This document shows, piece by piece, positions 1,076 through 58,835 of a stretch of 64,000 nt of DNA (its first letter is position 1; each line of letters opens with the position of its first letter). The notes beneath the pieces were generated by a model, which saw only the letters and a list, made by a program, of their open reading frames with translations, did no database searches and was not told where the DNA came from. The stretch spans positions 186,001 to 250,000 of the forward strand of contig NZ_FUYV01000001.1 of NCBI RefSeq assembly GCF_900168165.1. The letters run 5' to 3'. Origin of the DNA: Alkalitalea saponilacus (GTDB lineage: Bacteria; Bacteroidota; Bacteroidia; Bacteroidales; Marinilabiliaceae). A program made the translations under genes and the position numbers.

Positions 1076-2110
1076 ATGAAAAGGATATTATTTATAACAC
1101 TTATTACGGCGTTTGTAACAGGATTGTTTACATCCTGTGACAATGCAGATTGGGAGTTTCCCGATTTTGAGCACACTGCCGTATATTTTGCCTACCAGAG
1201 TCCTATTCGTACCATCACCCTTGGGGAAGATGTTTACGATACCACTCTTGATAATGAATACAAGGCTCAGATAATGGCTACAATGGGTGGTGTTTATGCT
1301 AACAATACAGATGTTGTTATTCAAATTCAAGTTGATAACTCTTTAGTTGATGGACTTGCATTTGATGGGAACGAGGATCCATTGCAGGACATCGTTGCTA
1401 TGCCGGAAAACTATTATTCTCTCTCATCTGACAGAATAACCATCAAAAAAGGAGATATACTTGGAGGTGTTACGGTTCAGCTAACTGAAGCCTTTTTTGC
1501 AGATCCTTTGGCTCTGACTACCCATTATGTGATTCCTGTAGTTATGACTTCGGTTACAAATGCAGACTCAATTCTTCAAGGAGTTCCTCTTGTGGAAAAT
1601 CCAAGAAGAGGCGTAGCTGACGATTGGGAAGTTCAACCGAAAGACTATATTCTCTATGCCATTAAATACATCAACAAGTATGATGCTAATTATTTGCGCA
1701 GAGGTCAGGATGTCATTTCGGGAGACCAATCGGGTACCATTACACGGAGTGCAGAGTATGTTGAGTGGGATGAAGTTGTTAGTACCATTTCCACACGTTC
1801 TTTAAATACAATTGCGTGGGAACATCAATCCAGAGATTTGGATGATTTTAGTCGTAGTTGTGTCTTATTACTTACTTTCGATGATCAAGGTAATTGTGTA
1901 ATTACTTCCGATACTGATGGAATTACAGCTAGCGGCACCGGAACATTTGTCTCTAAAGGCGAGAAAAACAGCTGGGGTAATAAAGATCGTGATGCGCTTT
2001 ATCTGGAGTACACCATAGATTATGGCGATGTTCAATTTACCATTACTGATACTATGGTGGTTCGAGACAGGGGAGTTAAGCCTGAGTGGTTTACATCCGT
2101 ATTAAAATAA
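1076..2110 (+). CDS. DUF1735 surface glycan-binding lipoprotein (SusE-position)
   Basis: 344-aa lipoprotein; the signal peptide ends in a lipobox (FTSC, Cys21) followed by acidic/polar residues (DNADWE), compatible with export to the cell surface. Residues about 30-165 look like a DUF1735 (BT_3987-like) beta-sandwich. The second half (from about 185, with DYILYAIKYINKY) resembles the DUF5627-type domain that often follows DUF1735 in xylan PULs. Proteins in this position after SusD usually act as surface glycan-binding proteins that hold the polysaccharide for the endo-xylanase; no enzymatic motif is visible. It lies 29 bases after susD and 28 bases before the GH10 gene, so all three are probably cotranscribed. 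Binding function is inferred from family and position. Confidence 0.8.
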   Translation: MKRILFITLITAFVTGLFTSCDNADWEFPDFEHTAVYFAYQSPIRTITLGEDVYDTTLDNEYKAQIMATMGGVYANNTDVVIQIQVDNSLVDGLAFDGNEDPLQDIVAMPENYYSLSSDRITIKKGDILGGVTVQLTEAFFADPLALTTHYVIPVVMTSVTNADSILQGVPLVENPRRGVADDWEVQPKDYILYAIKYINKYDANYLRRGQDVISGDQSGTITRSAEYVEWDEVVSTISTRSLNTIAWEHQSRDLDDFSRSCVLLLTFDDQGNCVITSDTDGITASGTGTFVSKGEKNSWGNKDRDALYLEYTIDYGDVQFTITDTMVVRDRGVKPEWFTSVLK

Positions 2111-2138
2111 TAGCAATTTTTTTGTAAAATCAAAAAAT

Positions 2139-4349
2139 ATGAAACATACAATAAATATTTTAGCCGCGTGCTTCTTGCTATTGATTTTTGCCGTTTCATG
2201 CGTGGATGACTCAATAGATTTCTTTGAGGTTGAAAAACCTGAATCTATTGCTGAATTGGAATATCTTAATGACTATGATTTCCTAAAATCCTACGTTGAT
2301 AGAGCTGCAAGTCCCAATTTCAAGTTAGGAGCAGGTGTTACTGTTAGTGAATACCTACGATTAGGTCATGTTTACCGGGTAATGAATTCAAATTTTGACA
2401 TGCTGACAGCAGGAAATGCCATGAAGTATAGCTCTGTTGTTGGCGACAATGGTTCTATGAATTTTGGTTCGGTAATTCAGTTTGTTGAGGCTGCCCGAAG
2501 TGCAGGAATTGAAATTTATGGTCATACATTGGTGTGGCATTCACAACAAAACAGAAACTACCTAAATCGTTTAATTGCTGACAGAGAGATTGAGGTTGAT
2601 CCTGATGCAAAAGATGAGGTTGTTGATGGATTTAAGGATTATAGAGTAGAAGGGTTTACCGGTTGGGTAGGTGGACCTGTTCAGCCTGTTGTTGAGGATG
2701 GACGATTGGTGGTAACCAGTACTGAAGCACAACCTAACTTCTGGGATGTGCAATATCATGTTGCCAATGGCATTTCTATAAAGGAAGATACCAGGCATAA
2801 AGTTACGATACGTATAAAAGGAACTAGTGAGGCATCAATTACTGTGGCTTTGGGAACCTGGGGCGCTCAACAAAATACAACCATTCCAATAACACAAGAA
2901 TGGGAAGAGGTGTCAGTTGAGCTTAACAGTACTGTTACTGCCAACGATGCTTTTGTGATGTTGCAATCAGGACACTACGTGGGAACCTATGAAATTGAAT
3001 GGGTGAGGGTAACTCATGAAGTTGCAGCAGCGGTTACTTATTACGTAAACCAACTTGAGAACAGTGAGATGCTGGTAGGTGGTTCAATGGACAATTTCAT
3101 CGTTCGCGAGAGTGGTCAGGCCGATGTTCCCGGTGCTATTCTTGAAGGCGAGGGACCCGACGGAATGAACGCTATCAAGATCAATTCTGTTGATAATCCT
3201 GCTAATCCCTGGGACACTCAATTCTTTATTTATACGCCGAACAAGGCATGGGAAGCTGGTGAGAATTATAGAATATCTTTCTGGTACAAAGCTTCTGCAG
3301 AAGCCAATTCTGAATCTCAGTGTCATGGAGCACCTGGCTCATACATGCATTGGCAGATGCTTCCGCAGAATCCTCAATTCACCACTGAATGGCAATATTA
3401 TGAAGCCACTAGTACTATTCCTGGTCAGGGTGACGGTATGAGGTCTATAGCTTTCAATCTCAATGTAAATCCAACTGCGATAACTTACTATTTTGCAAAT
3501 ATCGTTTGGGAGTCGGAAGAGTCAGGCAACACCATTCCTCTCAGCCCTGAAGAAAAGGCTGATACGTTAACTTATGCTTTGCGTAATTGGATTTCAGGTA
3601 TGATGCAAGCTACTGACGGTTATGTTAAAGAGTGGGATGTTGTTAACGAACCACTTGCTGGCCAAGGTAATGTAGGAGAAGGATTTTACGATCTTAAGTC
3701 TGCCGTTCGAGGTACTGTATCAGAAGAAGCTGCTGAAAATAGCTTCTACTGGCAAGATTATTTGGGTGATGATTATGTTCGCGTAGCCGTTAAATTAGCA
3801 CGTGAATATGGTCCAGATGGTTTGAAGTTGTTTGTTAACGATTACAATCTCGAATCTTTCTGGGATGACAATCACAAACTCAAGAGTCTTATCTATTGGA
3901 TTGACAGATGGGAAAGCGATGGCGTAACAGTGATTGATGGAATTGGTACTCAGATGCACGTTTCATATCATATGGATCCTGCACAGCAAGCTGTTAGAGA
4001 TGCTCATATCATTCAAATGTTTGAGCTATTGGCCGAAACCGGTAAATTTATTAAAATTACCGAATTGGATATGGGACTTATTGATGAAGATGGCAACACT
4101 GTGAGAACAGCTGATGTAACAAGCGAACAACATAGAGCCATGAGTGATCATTACAAGTTTATCATTCAGAAATATTTTGAAATTATTCCGGCCAACCTAC
4201 AATATGGTATAACCCATTGGAGTCCTACTGATAGTCCACAAGGATCATCATGGAGAGGTGGAGAACCTATCGGTTTATGGACAGAATCTACATTCAGACG
4301 CAAGCACACTTATGGTGGATTTGCAGATGGATTAGCTGGAAAGGAGTAA
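2139..4349 (+). CDS. GH10 endo-1,4-beta-xylanase lipoprotein with two inserted CBM4-type modules
   Basis: 736-aa lipoprotein (lipobox AVSC, Cys21, followed by VDDS, an acidic stretch suiting surface display). The GH10 barrel is split: the first strands, with GHTLVWHSQ at 128-136, occupy about 45-145. Two beta-sandwich modules resembling CBM4/CBM9-type modules follow (about 165-300 and 310-460). The barrel resumes at about 467. Acid/base Glu504 lies in EWDVVNEPLAG and nucleophile Glu642 in IKITELDMGL, so the enzyme should be active as a retaining endo-xylanase. GH10 enzymes with CBMs inserted in the barrel are known from Bacteroides and Prevotella xylan PULs, where they are the main surface xylanase. 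Last gene of the susD operon, followed by a strong terminator at 4411. Confidence 0.95.
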   Translation: MKHTINILAACFLLLIFAVSCVDDSIDFFEVEKPESIAELEYLNDYDFLKSYVDRAASPNFKLGAGVTVSEYLRLGHVYRVMNSNFDMLTAGNAMKYSSVVGDNGSMNFGSVIQFVEAARSAGIEIYGHTLVWHSQQNRNYLNRLIADREIEVDPDAKDEVVDGFKDYRVEGFTGWVGGPVQPVVEDGRLVVTSTEAQPNFWDVQYHVANGISIKEDTRHKVTIRIKGTSEASITVALGTWGAQQNTTIPITQEWEEVSVELNSTVTANDAFVMLQSGHYVGTYEIEWVRVTHEVAAAVTYYVNQLENSEMLVGGSMDNFIVRESGQADVPGAILEGEGPDGMNAIKINSVDNPANPWDTQFFIYTPNKAWEAGENYRISFWYKASAEANSESQCHGAPGSYMHWQMLPQNPQFTTEWQYYEATSTIPGQGDGMRSIAFNLNVNPTAITYYFANIVWESEESGNTIPLSPEEKADTLTYALRNWISGMMQATDGYVKEWDVVNEPLAGQGNVGEGFYDLKSAVRGTVSEEAAENSFYWQDYLGDDYVRVAVKLAREYGPDGLKLFVNDYNLESFWDDNHKLKSLIYWIDRWESDGVTVIDGIGTQMHVSYHMDPAQQAVRDAHIIQMFELLAETGKFIKITELDMGLIDEDGNTVRTADVTSEQHRAMSDHYKFIIQKYFEIIPANLQYGITHWSPTDSPQGSSWRGGEPIGLWTESTFRRKHTYGGFADGLAGKE

Positions 4350-4410
4350 GTTTGATAATCATTGGAATATACTTTAGTTTTTGAAGTTTTATTCATTATT
4401 TGGTTTGTAT

Positions 4411-4445
4411 AAGAGGTTGTCCCCCCGGGACAACCTCTTTTTTTA
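4411..4445 (+). terminator. Rho-independent terminator after the GH10 gene
   Basis: Perfect 12-bp stem (4411-4422 with 4428-4439), five-base loop and a T run after the second arm. It lies 61 bases after the GH10 stop and closes the susD-DUF1735-GH10 operon. Confidence 0.9.
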
Positions 4446-5266
4446 TCAAATAGATGATTTAAAATTGGTTTTTTTGGGGAGGGGTTCCTTAATTTAACCC
4501 CCATTTAAAGAATATCTATTTTCTATAAGCGATATCTGGCCACTCAATGGCGTTGCAATAAGCAAGATCCTTTATCTGTGCGCTACATCAATGCCAAAAG
4601 TATTTCCAATGCAGAAAGCCTTATTTAATCCAACCCAAAACAATGCTGCGCATTGAGATTGTGTCTTCCAACAGGCTGAAAGCCTAAATTAATTCAGCCC
4701 AAAGCAACGCCTTGGGCTGAAGTGATGTATTTCATATTCGTCCTGTGAAGGGCAGCTTAATTCCTTGTTCTTATAGTTTAGACCGGGGTATTAATCCCTG
4801 TCCCATGAGGTTGCCCTTGAAAGTAGAAACGCTATTATAAACTAGAGCCTTTTCTGGTTATTAGGAGCGTATTTGTAAGTTTTGCTATCTATTTGATAAG
4901 ATGATTCGATGGGAAAAATAAGTTAGTAATATTACGTGGAAGCTTTTTTTATTGGTGTTTTAAAATATGGATAGGGCTTATTGGATAATTACCACTAGAG
5001 CAGAGATGAAAAAATATTTTGGTCTTGTATTGTTCAGTTTATTAGGTTGCTATAGTGTCTTTGGGGTTAAATCTGCCTAAAATAAGTAAATAACAATTCA
5101 GCTTTTTGAAGATTTACTCATAATTAGAAATGAAATATCTGATTTTAAAGATACTTCTTGCAAGTATAGGTTATTTTTGTTATGAGAGTTTTGAAAACAA
5201 TGAAGTCAAATTTCTAAGGAAATTTGTTTTAGAGATATTCTTGTAGTTTTTTAGTGCAATTAAATG
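4446..5266. other. Gene-less spacer with no supported ORF
   Basis: About 820 bases between two terminators with no convincing reading frame. The first 300 bases hold a cluster of short palindromes (listed separately at 4641-4721). The rest is AT-rich and contains short in-frame scraps only. No promoter consensus was recognised. It may be the decayed remains of an inserted element, but nothing identifiable is left. Confidence 0.6.
4641..4721. repeat. Cluster of three palindromic units, REP-like
   Basis: Three consecutive inverted repeats lie within 81 bases: 4641-4655 (6-bp arms CAATGC/GCATTG, 3-base loop), 4673-4685 (5-bp arms AGGCT/AGCCT) and 4693-4721 (perfect 10-bp arms TTCAGCCCAA/TTGGGCTGAA, 9-base loop). 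GC-rich hairpins of this kind, with AGCCC/GGGCT arms in intergenic DNA, resemble repetitive extragenic palindromes spread by REP-associated transposases. No other copy was noticed in this window, so repetition genome-wide is not shown here. Confidence 0.45.
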
Positions 5267-40673: not shown

Positions 40674-42983
40674 ATGAAATCAATTAATATACTGCTATGT
40701 ATGCTTATTGGAATATCTATTTTTCCAATAAGCGTACAAGCTCAAAACTATACCAGTTGGTATAACAATGCGCAAGAGCGTATCGAGGAGCTTCGTATGG
40801 ACTCCTATGGCATACAAATATTCGATAGAAACGGAGAGCCTTACACGGGCGAAGTCGCTATTCGAATGCAGAAACATGAATTCCCATTTGGCATTGCCTT
40901 TGATTTCTCCCAAGGAGCTCAAAGCATGGGCAATGTTTTTTCCACAAATAATGTTGTACAGGCCGAAAAAGATGCCGAAATCTACCGGACTGAACGATGG
41001 GGTGGCTATATAGCCTATGCCATCCCGGTTGAAGCTGGAAAAGATTATGAAGTCACCCTTAAGTTCGCTGAAATATTTCATGGAGGAAATAATGCCCGCA
41101 TATTTAATGTGCGGGTTGATGGGGAACTCTTTTTGGAAAATTTTGATACTCATGCAGTGGCCGGAGGTAGAGATATTGCTGTAGATAGGAGTCTGGTGGT
41201 TACATCTTCCGGGAATCAAATTCTTATTGAATTTGAAGCTGTAGTGGATAATGTAGCTATAAAAGGGATTGTTGTTGAAGAAGTTGATGGTGATTTTACT
41301 TTAAGGATTAATTGTGGGGGATCTGCATTAACAACAGCTGATGGCAATGAATATGTTGCAGAGGCTGGGTTTTTCGATCCTGACGCCAATACAGTCGCAT
41401 CCAACGATGACTGGAGAAAAGCCACGATGTATAAATATTTTAACGCCGGTGTTACCGAAAACTCTTTTAAATGGAGTGGTGTTCAGTCACAGCCCGGTCC
41501 GCCCAATTATACCGTATTTGAAAATGCCGTTAGATGGGCTCAAAAAGTTGGTTGGGAGCTGAGAGGACATGCATTGATTTGGGGTGGTAACGATAACCAT
41601 TCAACCCCTAATTGGGTGAGGAGTTTGCCAACTCCAGATGATATTTATGAAGCTTGTAAAGAGAGGGTTCTTCGGGATGTTGAACGTTATAGAGGGATTA
41701 TTAAAGAATATGACGTAGTGAATGAGCCACTTACCGGTCATGCTGATTGGTTAAGAAATGAAGTAGGAGACCGTATTATATGGGACAGCTTTAAATGGGC
41801 ACGTTCAGTAGATCCTGATGCCGAACTTTATATAAATGATTATAATGTGGAGTACAATTGGGGTCAGGCCGAAGAATACCGGGATTTGATCTTTGAAATG
41901 TTAAATCAAGGTGCACCGGTTACAGGTGTAGGAATGCAGGCTCATTTCTGGGATTGTTGCAGGCCAGGGATTAATGAGTTGGTACGTAACATTAATATTG
42001 TTGCTGAACCAGGCTTGCCAATTAAACTGACTGAGTATGATTTCGGCGGAAATCTTACGCAGGCTGAGCAAGCTGCTGATTATATCATGGTTCTTACAAT
42101 TGCTTTTTCTCACCCTTCTATTGTAGGATTATATCATTGGTCACTCAGAGACGGATGGGCCTGGCGTGAAAATTCAGGCTTCTTTGATAGAGATGGAAGA
42201 CCAAAGCTGGCTGCCGATACCTTACTTTATTATACTAAAACTAAGTGGGCAACTAATTTCGATGCAGTAATGCCGGCCAATGAACCTTTAACTTTTAATG
42301 CATTCCATGGTAACTACACCGTGGAAGCAGAATTTGACGGGGTGGTTAAAGTGTTCGAGGTTCCTTTGCTGAAGGCAAATGCCGATGCGGTTTTTGTATT
42401 AAATGAGGAAGATGCAGTAGTTAAGGGGCCACAATTCTTGGAGACAGAACTTGTTGGGAGAAATTCTGTGAGGCTGTTATTCGATAAGCCCATTGATGGT
42501 AATTCGTTGCGAGGCAGTAATTACAGATTTTTCTCGTCAGGTAATATAGGTGTTGAAGCGGCGAATGTTGATCCTGATAACGGGAATGCAGTCATTCTCT
42601 CTTTGAGTTCAAATGTTTCTTCGGGACAATATATCTCTGTATCTTATTTCCCTGGTTCGCTTAGAGCTTTGGATGGCAGTGTTGCTAATGCATTTGGGCC
42701 TGAGGAGATTGCTAATAAGGCATCATCCGTTGGCACGACCAACATCGAGCAAAGTAGGGTTCGAATATATCCCAACCCGGCAACAAATAATCTAAATATA
42801 GCATACGAATCATCACCATTTAGAATAAGCATTTTTAATAGCATGGGCGTACTTGTTTATTCTGGCACCTCTGCAAATGAGTCCTATAGTTTAGATGTAG
42901 GTGGTTTTGCAAGAGGGATGTACGTTATTCAGTTAACTGATCAAAATAACCAAATAAGAGTTGAAAAGTTCTTGTTGAAGTAA
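40674..42983 (+). CDS. GH10 xylanase with internal malectin-like insert and T9SS sorting domain
   Basis: 769 aa with a signal peptide (about 1-23). GH10 begins at about 30-75 (RMQKHEFPFGIAFD), is interrupted by a malectin-like module (about 95-235) and resumes at ATMYKYFNAGVTENSFKWSG (251-270). Acid/base Glu351 in YDVVNEPLTGH; nucleophile Glu454 in KLTEYDFGG. In the insert the malectin motifs RTERWGG (105-111), KFAEIF (130-135) and IKGIVVEE (196-203) come before RINCGG (211-216), which is normally the first strand, so the module looks circularly permuted. Residues about 575-680 are a further beta domain. VRIYPNPATNN ... RVEKFLLK is a T9SS type A tail. Extracellular endo-xylanase; last gene of the block, terminator at 42996. 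Confidence 0.92.
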   Translation: MKSINILLCMLIGISIFPISVQAQNYTSWYNNAQERIEELRMDSYGIQIFDRNGEPYTGEVAIRMQKHEFPFGIAFDFSQGAQSMGNVFSTNNVVQAEKDAEIYRTERWGGYIAYAIPVEAGKDYEVTLKFAEIFHGGNNARIFNVRVDGELFLENFDTHAVAGGRDIAVDRSLVVTSSGNQILIEFEAVVDNVAIKGIVVEEVDGDFTLRINCGGSALTTADGNEYVAEAGFFDPDANTVASNDDWRKATMYKYFNAGVTENSFKWSGVQSQPGPPNYTVFENAVRWAQKVGWELRGHALIWGGNDNHSTPNWVRSLPTPDDIYEACKERVLRDVERYRGIIKEYDVVNEPLTGHADWLRNEVGDRIIWDSFKWARSVDPDAELYINDYNVEYNWGQAEEYRDLIFEMLNQGAPVTGVGMQAHFWDCCRPGINELVRNINIVAEPGLPIKLTEYDFGGNLTQAEQAADYIMVLTIAFSHPSIVGLYHWSLRDGWAWRENSGFFDRDGRPKLAADTLLYYTKTKWATNFDAVMPANEPLTFNAFHGNYTVEAEFDGVVKVFEVPLLKANADAVFVLNEEDAVVKGPQFLETELVGRNSVRLLFDKPIDGNSLRGSNYRFFSSGNIGVEAANVDPDNGNAVILSLSSNVSSGQYISVSYFPGSLRALDGSVANAFGPEEIANKASSVGTTNIEQSRVRIYPNPATNNLNIAYESSPFRISIFNSMGVLVYSGTSANESYSLDVGGFARGMYVIQLTDQNNQIRVEKFLLK

Positions 42984-56735: not shown

Positions 56736-58835
56736 ATGAAAAAAGAAACGATGGTTATGTGGATGAGGTATATGCTCTTATCGCTGTTTATACCTTTAAT
56801 TATGTTCTCTTGTGCACAAGTAAGAGATTCGGGGATGGCAAGTTCTAATGATAAAGCTACCTTCCGGGTTACAGGAAACCCATACCTGCCTTTATGGGAG
56901 CATCTTCCGGATGGAGAGCCTCGTGTTTTCGAAGATCCTGATAATCCTGGAAAATACAGGTATTACATCATTGGTTCTCACGATGTGAGATATACCAGTT
57001 ATTGTGGTCCGGATATAAGAGCCTGGTCCGCTCCTGTAGAAGATTTGTCGAGTTGGCGTGATGAAGGTCCTATTTTTACCTACCATGTTGATGACCAGTG
57101 GGACGTGATGTATGCTCCGGATCTTGTAGAGGTTGTTAGAAAAGACGGAACCAAGGAGTATTATCTTTATCCGCATAGTCGTGGTCCCGGCCGGGAAGCT
57201 ATGGTGGCAAAGGGATACCGTCCTGATGGCCCTTTTACCCCTATTAATATGACTGAAGATGGCCGCAACACCTTACCTGGAAGTATAATGGGATTTGACC
57301 CTTCAGTGTATATTGAATATGTTACAGATCCCAATGATCCTGATTATGAAATTGGGTTCAGAGCTTATGGCTATTGGGGCTTTCAACGGTCGCTGGCAGC
57401 GGAGCTTGATCAAAATACCATGTACTCTGTAAGGCCTGGAACTGAAGTGATCGACCGTTTTATTCCTGCCAGTTTCAGATATGGAGTTATCAGGGATCCG
57501 GAAGGAACCGAATATCCTCATGTATATGAGGGAGAAGACTTGGGCTCATTTAATTTTTTTGAAGCGGCATCAATTCGTAAGATTGGTAACAAATATATTT
57601 GGGTTTTCAGTGGTTATTCCGGCCCCGATTATGGAGTGAGCAGTACCAACTCCACATTGCGTTATGCATACGGAGACTCGCCGCTGGGTCCATGGAGAAG
57701 CGGAGGGGTTCTTGTAGATTCACGTGCTCCTGTATTAAATGAAGATGGTTCTGCACTTCAAACAAGTTATTCAGGACACAACACCCATGGAAGTATTGAA
57801 CTGATTAATGACCAGTGGTATGCTTTTTATCACAGGGCTCCAAGAAGTTTTGGAAATGCGCGCCAGCCAATGGTGGCACCCATTATTATTGAGTGGGATG
57901 AAAAACCTGTGGCTGATGGTGGAAAAGTAATCATCAGGGCATACGACCCCTATGCAGAGGATAAAATTTGGACAGCAAAAGACAGTCAGGGAATAGAATA
58001 TACTGGAGCAGAAGTAACATCGGAAGGTTTCCATATTTATGGATTGGATCCATATAACTATTACTCGGCTGGTTATGCCTGTTATCTGTCAAACTTAGGA
58101 AGCCAGCAAGATAGCTGGGATATTTGGGATAACAACATGCCCATTGGTGTAGTCCTTAGCGGGGATATCATTGGGTATAAATATTTTGGTTTTGGGGGTT
58201 TGGATACAGACAAAAAGGGTTTAAAGGCTTTTGAAGGCAGCAAACCTGGAAATAATACAGCTTTTAATCTTTTCCTGACGCCAAAAACAGATCAGGCATT
58301 TAAAGTTAACGTATGGCTAGACGGACCTTGGGATAACAATGCCTGGAATGGAACTAAAATTGGAGAGATTCTAGTACCAGCCAATTCAGCAAAGGAAACC
58401 AATAAATATAGTATAGATGTATCTGAGTTTGTAGATCATTTAGAGAAAAAGCATGCCATCTTCCTTGTGGCAGAAGGTCCGGCTGAAGAAGGCCTTTTTG
58501 ATCTAATCGGGCTGGGCTTCAGCTCTGACCAAAAGGAGATTGTTCGCCCAATTGCTCCCACAGTAAATATTCAAGTTAATGGCAACGAGGTAGAAATTCC
58601 TGCCACGCCGGTAAGATCAACCAATGAAAACGGTATTGTTGATTATACCCTATATCAAGCCAGCTATAAGTTTTCATCAGGAACAAGCGAAACTCCTAAT
58701 GTAACCGCCTCTGCAAGTAATCCAGCTGTTAGAGTGGACATAATGCAGGCTGATTCGATAGACGGAATAGCAGTGGTTAATTTTGATTACAATGGCATTG
58801 TGAAAACATACAACGTTGTGTTTGAATCTGAGTAA
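56736..58835 (+). CDS. GH43-family lipoprotein with extra C-terminal domains
   Basis: 699-aa lipoprotein (lipobox MFSC, Cys26, then AQVRD). The start NPYLPLWEHLPDGEPRVFED and the following IIGSHDVR are typical of a Bacteroides GH43 group annotated only as family 43. Modulator Asp in MGFDPSVYIEY and acid Glu in NFFEAASIRKIGNKY are visible. The base Asp is probably in LPDGEP. Residues about 420-600 form a CBM6-like beta domain (FHIYGLDPYNYYSAGYACYL ... FDLIGLGF), and the last 80 residues a bacterial Ig-like domain (VNGNEVEIPAT). Substrate may be galactose-, arabinose- or xylose-based. Terminator at 58892 closes the unit. Confidence 0.82.
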   Translation: MKKETMVMWMRYMLLSLFIPLIMFSCAQVRDSGMASSNDKATFRVTGNPYLPLWEHLPDGEPRVFEDPDNPGKYRYYIIGSHDVRYTSYCGPDIRAWSAPVEDLSSWRDEGPIFTYHVDDQWDVMYAPDLVEVVRKDGTKEYYLYPHSRGPGREAMVAKGYRPDGPFTPINMTEDGRNTLPGSIMGFDPSVYIEYVTDPNDPDYEIGFRAYGYWGFQRSLAAELDQNTMYSVRPGTEVIDRFIPASFRYGVIRDPEGTEYPHVYEGEDLGSFNFFEAASIRKIGNKYIWVFSGYSGPDYGVSSTNSTLRYAYGDSPLGPWRSGGVLVDSRAPVLNEDGSALQTSYSGHNTHGSIELINDQWYAFYHRAPRSFGNARQPMVAPIIIEWDEKPVADGGKVIIRAYDPYAEDKIWTAKDSQGIEYTGAEVTSEGFHIYGLDPYNYYSAGYACYLSNLGSQQDSWDIWDNNMPIGVVLSGDIIGYKYFGFGGLDTDKKGLKAFEGSKPGNNTAFNLFLTPKTDQAFKVNVWLDGPWDNNAWNGTKIGEILVPANSAKETNKYSIDVSEFVDHLEKKHAIFLVAEGPAEEGLFDLIGLGFSSDQKEIVRPIAPTVNIQVNGNEVEIPATPVRSTNENGIVDYTLYQASYKFSSGTSETPNVTASASNPAVRVDIMQADSIDGIAVVNFDYNGIVKTYNVVFESE

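Follow-up and report, generated by a model that had tools for sequence, protein, structure and literature searches.

A predicted GH10 xylanase of Alkalitalea saponilacus with an apparently circularly permuted malectin module in a loop of its barrel

The window analyzed in this study is a stretch of 64,000 nucleotides from Alkalitalea saponilacus (contig NZ_FUYV01000001.1, positions 186,001 to 250,000 of the forward strand). The ORF at positions 40674-42983 is predicted to encode a secreted, xylanase-type GH10 enzyme. Its product matches the GH10 profile of Pfam at residues 245-516 with 169 bits (cut-off 22.1), and both catalytic glutamates of the family are in place within conserved motifs; as is usual for GH10 enzymes, E351 would be the acid/base and E454 the nucleophile. 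The original prediction had picked out this ORF and five motifs in its translation, and all were recovered: RTERWGG at residues 105-111, KFAEIF at 130-135, IKGIVVEE at 196-203, RINCGG at 211-216 and GNEYVAEAGF at 224-233. The parts of the gene are given below, with barrel strands and helices named as is general for GH10 enzymes.

40674-42983, + strand: ORF of 769 aa, predicted GH10 xylanase-type enzyme interrupted by a putative permuted malectin module and ending in a T9SS sorting tail (translation, Pfam)
40746-40916, + strand: GH10 N-terminal flank and barrel strand β1, residues ~25-81, ending FPFGIAFDFSQG (aligned to 7d88 37-93 and to the insert-less relative L093)
40917-41390, + strand: inserted, apparently circularly permuted malectin/CBM57 module, residues ~82-239, ends ± ~5 residues (Pfam, reordering, alignment)
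40923-41285, + strand: malectin core, residues 84-204, canonical positions from ~35, placed first (canonical profile, site mapping)
41286-41303, + strand: linker DGDFTL, residues 205-210, from old C-terminus to old N-terminus (canonical profile)
41304-41384, + strand: old N-terminal strand and next stretch, RINCGG to GFFDPD, residues 211-237, canonical positions to ~25, placed last (reordering, alignment)
41406-42221, + strand: remaining GH10 barrel from helix α1, residues 245-516 (Pfam, 7d88 alignment, fold comparison)
41724-41726, + strand: E351, expected acid/base, motif YDVVNEP (motif position, conservation)
42033-42035, + strand: E454, expected nucleophile, motif KLTEYD (motif position, conservation)
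42765-42971, + strand: T9SS type A sorting domain, residues 698-766 (Pfam)

The length of the linker is best quoted as 3-6 residues, as the profile ends leave only residues 205-207 unmatched within 205-210.

The genes around the ORF (positions 16914-61425) include a GH95, two GH43-CBM6 proteins and another GH43, a GH2, two GH127, two GH31, two GH97 and a GH3-PA14, along with an arabinofuranosidase-type enzyme, esterase-type proteins and a GH30-like protein. This predicted content is fitting for the breakdown of plant cell-wall polysaccharides. No SusC or SusD family match was found among the 23 proteins scanned in this interval. Homologues of the GH3, of one GH97 and of one GH43-CBM6 lie beside the GH10 gene in three further loci (L088, L090, L091). 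The glycosidase cluster also contains a 699-aa ORF (56736-58835) that has no Pfam match at 1e-5.

By alignment, the insert follows FDFYEG, which closes strand β1, and precedes the helix leading to MYKYFN. The gap between the two matched stretches amounts to 13 residues in the solved GH10 structure 7d88 as against 175 in the window protein. A scan of a genome collection with six short window peptides returned 11 relatives; because one of these peptides lies inside the insert, the scan favors insert carriers. Ten of the relatives have the insert (62-96% identity over the best segment, the 96% being that of L083 from Natronoflexus pectinivorans), and the modules themselves are 52-95% identical to the one in the window. 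The eleventh, L093, lacks it (58%), as does a second GH10 protein, L065 (45%); most further GH10 loci were compared by BLAST only. In a GH10 tree made without the insert columns and without the partial L092, the carriers form one clade (10 rows, 96/96), joined by L093 (99/98) and then by L065 (97/99); the tool flagged long branches among the other rows. Since the insert-less L093 is sister to a single clade of carriers, the insert was likely gained once in this GH10 lineage, which is the simplest reading of the tree. Within the window's family, it was found in 2 of 71 genomes, both from one genus, a third match (G030) being a different protein. Plasmids searched with the full-length window protein yielded GH10s of less than 60% identity, none covering 80% of the query. 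One viral contig in IMG/VR (L168) encodes a malectin relative with 34% identity over part of the insert, the sole malectin obtained from viral contigs.

The order of parts within the insert was examined against the Malectin profile (PF11721). In the native protein this profile matches residues 89-193 with 85.3 bits (cut-off 23) and runs from position 40 to 145 of its 163, so that its first 39 positions are absent ahead of the core. The RINCGG segment, which follows the core, matches positions 2-24 by itself, weakly (13.6 bits, E 0.069). When residues 205-246 were placed ahead of residues 80-204 and rescored, the module gave a single alignment running from profile position 2 to 145 with 97.1 bits, as against 80.5 bits for the core alone, 80.7 for a control with the core preceded by the reversed segment and 90.2, split over two stretches, for the native order. 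We therefore file the module as a permuted variant of Malectin/CBM57 rather than a plain member. A separate canonical profile was made from 56 bacterial malectins with an upstream motif, out of 71 malectin-type matches scoring above 20 (11 matches lacking a motif hit were excluded, and there were 11 unassigned ones beside the 71). With this profile, the score of the window module rises from 98.2 bits for the core to 115.9 bits on reordering. None of 300 shuffles of the segment reached the reordered score, in the window or in any of the 10 homologous GH10 inserts, and the parts stand in identical order in all 11.

Comparison with known structures leads in the same direction. Once reordered, the module aligns to the plant malectin receptor 9hhu as a single stretch (query 4-136 on chain 398-546, E 3.5e-5), the top PDB match of this query being a spurious WD-40 that covers part of the RINCGG segment. 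Conversely, when the 11 inserts were made into a profile with their native order kept, 9hhu was matched in swapped pieces (137-173 on chain 402-438, 12-112 on 451-561), the smaller of which is weak (8.8 bits). A profile of the reordered window module together with six canonical domains, whose rows contribute to the score, matches residues 8-145 of malectin 2jwp with 98.0 bits. As judged from sequence, the similarity of the RINCGG segment and core to malectin is beyond chance, and a permuted malectin inside the GH10 barrel is well supported. Both parts of the original prediction thus stand: the circular permutation through the reordering and shuffle tests and the two kinds of match to 9hhu, and the insertion into a barrel loop through the insert-less L093 and L065, found in the search for GH10 homologues with and without the insert.

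Structure models of the protein are of low confidence. AlphaFold2 gave a mean pLDDT of 61.4 for the enzyme with 12 alignment rows and of 58.8 for the insert alone with 11 rows. At this low confidence, the GH10 barrel fold is recovered (7d88, Z 28.1 over 292 residues, rmsd 6.6; 3nj3, Z 27.0 over 282 residues, rmsd 3.3), the insert model resembles malectin 2jwp from chain residue 44 onward (Z 9.5 over 120 residues, rmsd 3.6), and a β-strand is predicted at residues 209-213 in both models. In the insert-only comparison, model residues up to ~134 align to malectins, an outcome that a sequential aligner would give whatever the place of RINCGG. RINCGG would fill the usual place of the first malectin strand. 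Instead, the insert might be made of two incomplete malectins that form no permuted fold, one cut short and then the leftover beginning of another. Tandem malectins exist in related genomes (L097, L099), their trimming would yield the order seen here, and pLDDT is low after the RINC strand. However, a remnant would be expected to decay, whereas RINCGG is unchanged in all 11 inserts despite their divergence; moreover, each part is present in one copy, the linker is short and the GH10 sequence resumes directly after the segment. We consider this explanation unlikely. Even less credible is the idea that RINCGG belongs to an extended GH10 loop or to another small domain and looks like malectin by chance. 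The weak score of the isolated segment and the WD-40 match would speak for it; against it, the segment is missing in the insert-less relatives, is equaled by none of the 300 shuffles and aligns to the opening strand of the malectin domain in 9hhu.

As judged from sequence, the permuted order is not peculiar to GH10 enzymes, since it recurs in GH2 enzymes. Four proteins from a draw of 392 genomes of the phylum matched the permuted profile over almost its whole length, namely the window protein and three GH2 enzymes (G163, G186 and G337), an outcome expected by construction because all four are rows of that profile. Among the matches listed from this draw, no fifth near-full-length one was found at E up to 1e-12; the others end at or before position 168, and those opened proved canonical or tandem. 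A second draw, of 245 genomes, yielded these three GH2 enzymes again, and no additional full-length match came up at E up to 1e-5. In the three proteins, which have GH2 domains by Pfam, VNCGG or INCGG stands after the malectin core and has no counterpart ahead of it. All three modules pass the reordering shuffle test (0/300), L094 narrowly so (96.3 bits versus 95.7 for the best shuffle). A further GH2 enzyme, L172, encoded by plasmid pPP4 of Persicobacter psychrovividus, aligns alike; its module is not significant alone (61/300 shuffles) and is counted solely through its alignment with the three supported copies. The positions of the GH2 genes are as follows.

L094, 2373-6056: GH2 enzyme, predicted permuted malectin spliced into a C-terminal domain
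L095, 2237-5746: GH2 enzyme, likewise
L096, 466-4104: GH2 enzyme, likewise
L172, 1378-4992: GH2 enzyme, likewise, by alignment only

Two other candidates were rejected. L105 (the G030 match mentioned above) has a possible RRINCG motif downstream of its malectin; 79 of 300 shuffles reach its score, making it the one failure in a set of 15 tested modules to which L172 does not belong, and it falls outside the permuted group in the tree. Its gene (1561-4794) encodes a 1078-aa protein whose remainder has no Pfam match at 0.1. L015, thought to have the motif downstream only, has MRINAG upstream as well and represents a tandem pair.

The C-terminal domain that receives the module in the GH2 enzymes is read, from its sequence, as an α/β domain, whose halves are 155-173 residues apart in the carriers. 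The joined flanks gave no usable match in Pfam (L095, L096) or in the PDB (L096, best E 0.18). A search of eight genomes revealed no insert-less relative of this domain; one was found among plasmids, in the GH2 relative L173 of Persicobacter sp. JZB09, which has the flanking domain without the malectin module and a GH2 body 31-34% identical to those of the carriers. Joined carrier flanks match L173 at E 4e-10 to 5e-14, chiefly in the second half, the first half resting on the multiple alignment. Thus, with L093 and L065 on one side and L173 on the other, insert-bearing and insert-less members exist in both host families.

Did the permutation arise once or twice? In a tree of the malectin core, the GH10 and GH2 permuted modules group in one clade (86/85; 862 of 1000 bootstraps), and they do so again, at lower support (58/92; 578 of 1000), in a second core tree made with a stricter alignment and without L014, L015, L017, L025, L026, L030 and L105, mostly long branches. 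Independent permutation in the two families, with no common permuted ancestor, is quite conceivable given this weak support and the absence from the GH2 copies of the MGN stretch with which the GH10 core starts. Against it stand the joint grouping in both best trees and the position of the break, which is in the same loop; a single origin thus seems somewhat more likely. It is tempting to go further and speculate that the permuted malectin spread from that origin as an insertion-ready cassette into unrelated host loops, in the GH10 barrel and in the GH2 C-terminal domain, presenting its pocket to the host enzyme. With both chain ends at the sugar-binding loop, such a cassette could be spliced into host loops. 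We hold this extension to be tentative, the odds being somewhat against it.

Sequence comparisons establish the permuted order, the insertion site, the one-gain pattern in the GH10 lineage and the presence of the same order in GH2 enzymes; they also offer clues to function. The sugar residues of human malectin are given as S80, E102, Y104, Y131, K138 and D201 (PMC13335976). The first five align with N87, E107, W109, F135 and R142 of the window protein (numbers counted from alignments), and D201 corresponds to D192 by motif only. Just one of the five aligned residues, E107, is identical, the other four being replaced; in the insert of L087, the E107 position is occupied by Q and D192 is also absent. 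The module may bind a sugar. N87 and F89, the latter in the place of Xenopus Tyr67, are within ~7 residues of the new N-terminal end, so the break lies in the putative binding loop. The original proposal, that permutation served to draw the module termini close to each other, is unnecessary, since the old ends, joined by only 3-6 residues (205-210), were probably close already. What the permutation would have done is to move the chain ends to the putative sugar-binding loop.

The picture that we favor is as follows. A malectin (CBM57) domain would have been permuted within the loop that links its first strand to the remainder, most likely from a tandem pair that lost its outer halves, and would have been inserted once into the β1/α1 loop of the GH10 barrel. 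Because the new N-terminal end adjoins the mapped site residues N87 and F89, the predicted pocket could be held at the catalytic mouth. Most binding modules are attached to their enzyme in series, by a tether; the insert might rather extend or anchor the substrate at the catalytic mouth. Taken as a whole, a GH10 enzyme with a permuted CBM57 inserted once in the β1/α1 loop and a putative pocket at the catalytic mouth is, in our judgment, very probably the right explanation. As the insert-less relatives in each family provide natural controls, whether permutation aims the pocket at the active site can be tested directly. There may also be a practical side to these findings: domain boundaries based on profiles clip such modules and could spoil constructs made from them.

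Among the matches listed by searches of open-access papers, none describes a permuted malectin. The window module resembles canonical Malectin/CBM57 in core sequence, in predicted core fold and in the aligned places of most sugar-site residues; unlike it, the module appears permuted, with the first strand last, and is inserted in a barrel loop. Circular permutation is reported to link binding-module families in work by Montanier et al. from 2010, the families being reportedly CBM36 and CBM60. That case would be alike as a natural permutation between binding-module families and unlike in the families concerned. In Bacteroidetes GH10 xylanases (Xyn10C-like, Pm25), two CBM4 modules are inserted between β3 and α3 (PMC7848910). 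These enzymes share with ours a carbohydrate-binding module spliced into the GH10 barrel; they differ in having a CBM4 pair at β3/α3 where the window protein has one putative permuted CBM57 at β1/α1. With a malectin after β1 and no CBM4 pair, the window protein does not belong to the Xyn10C-like group. BT0996-type GH2 enzymes (NF049877) are described as having a CBM57 module (PMC9843283). An NF049877 match had suggested that these enzymes share the permutation; all eight ORFs examined, two of which pass the NF049877 cut-off, proved to have the canonical order, unlike the module described here. Insertion of a CBM into a GH10 enzyme (PMC7848910) and permutation linking two CBM families are, then, already known; in the present case permutation and internal insertion appear in combination, and in two enzyme families.
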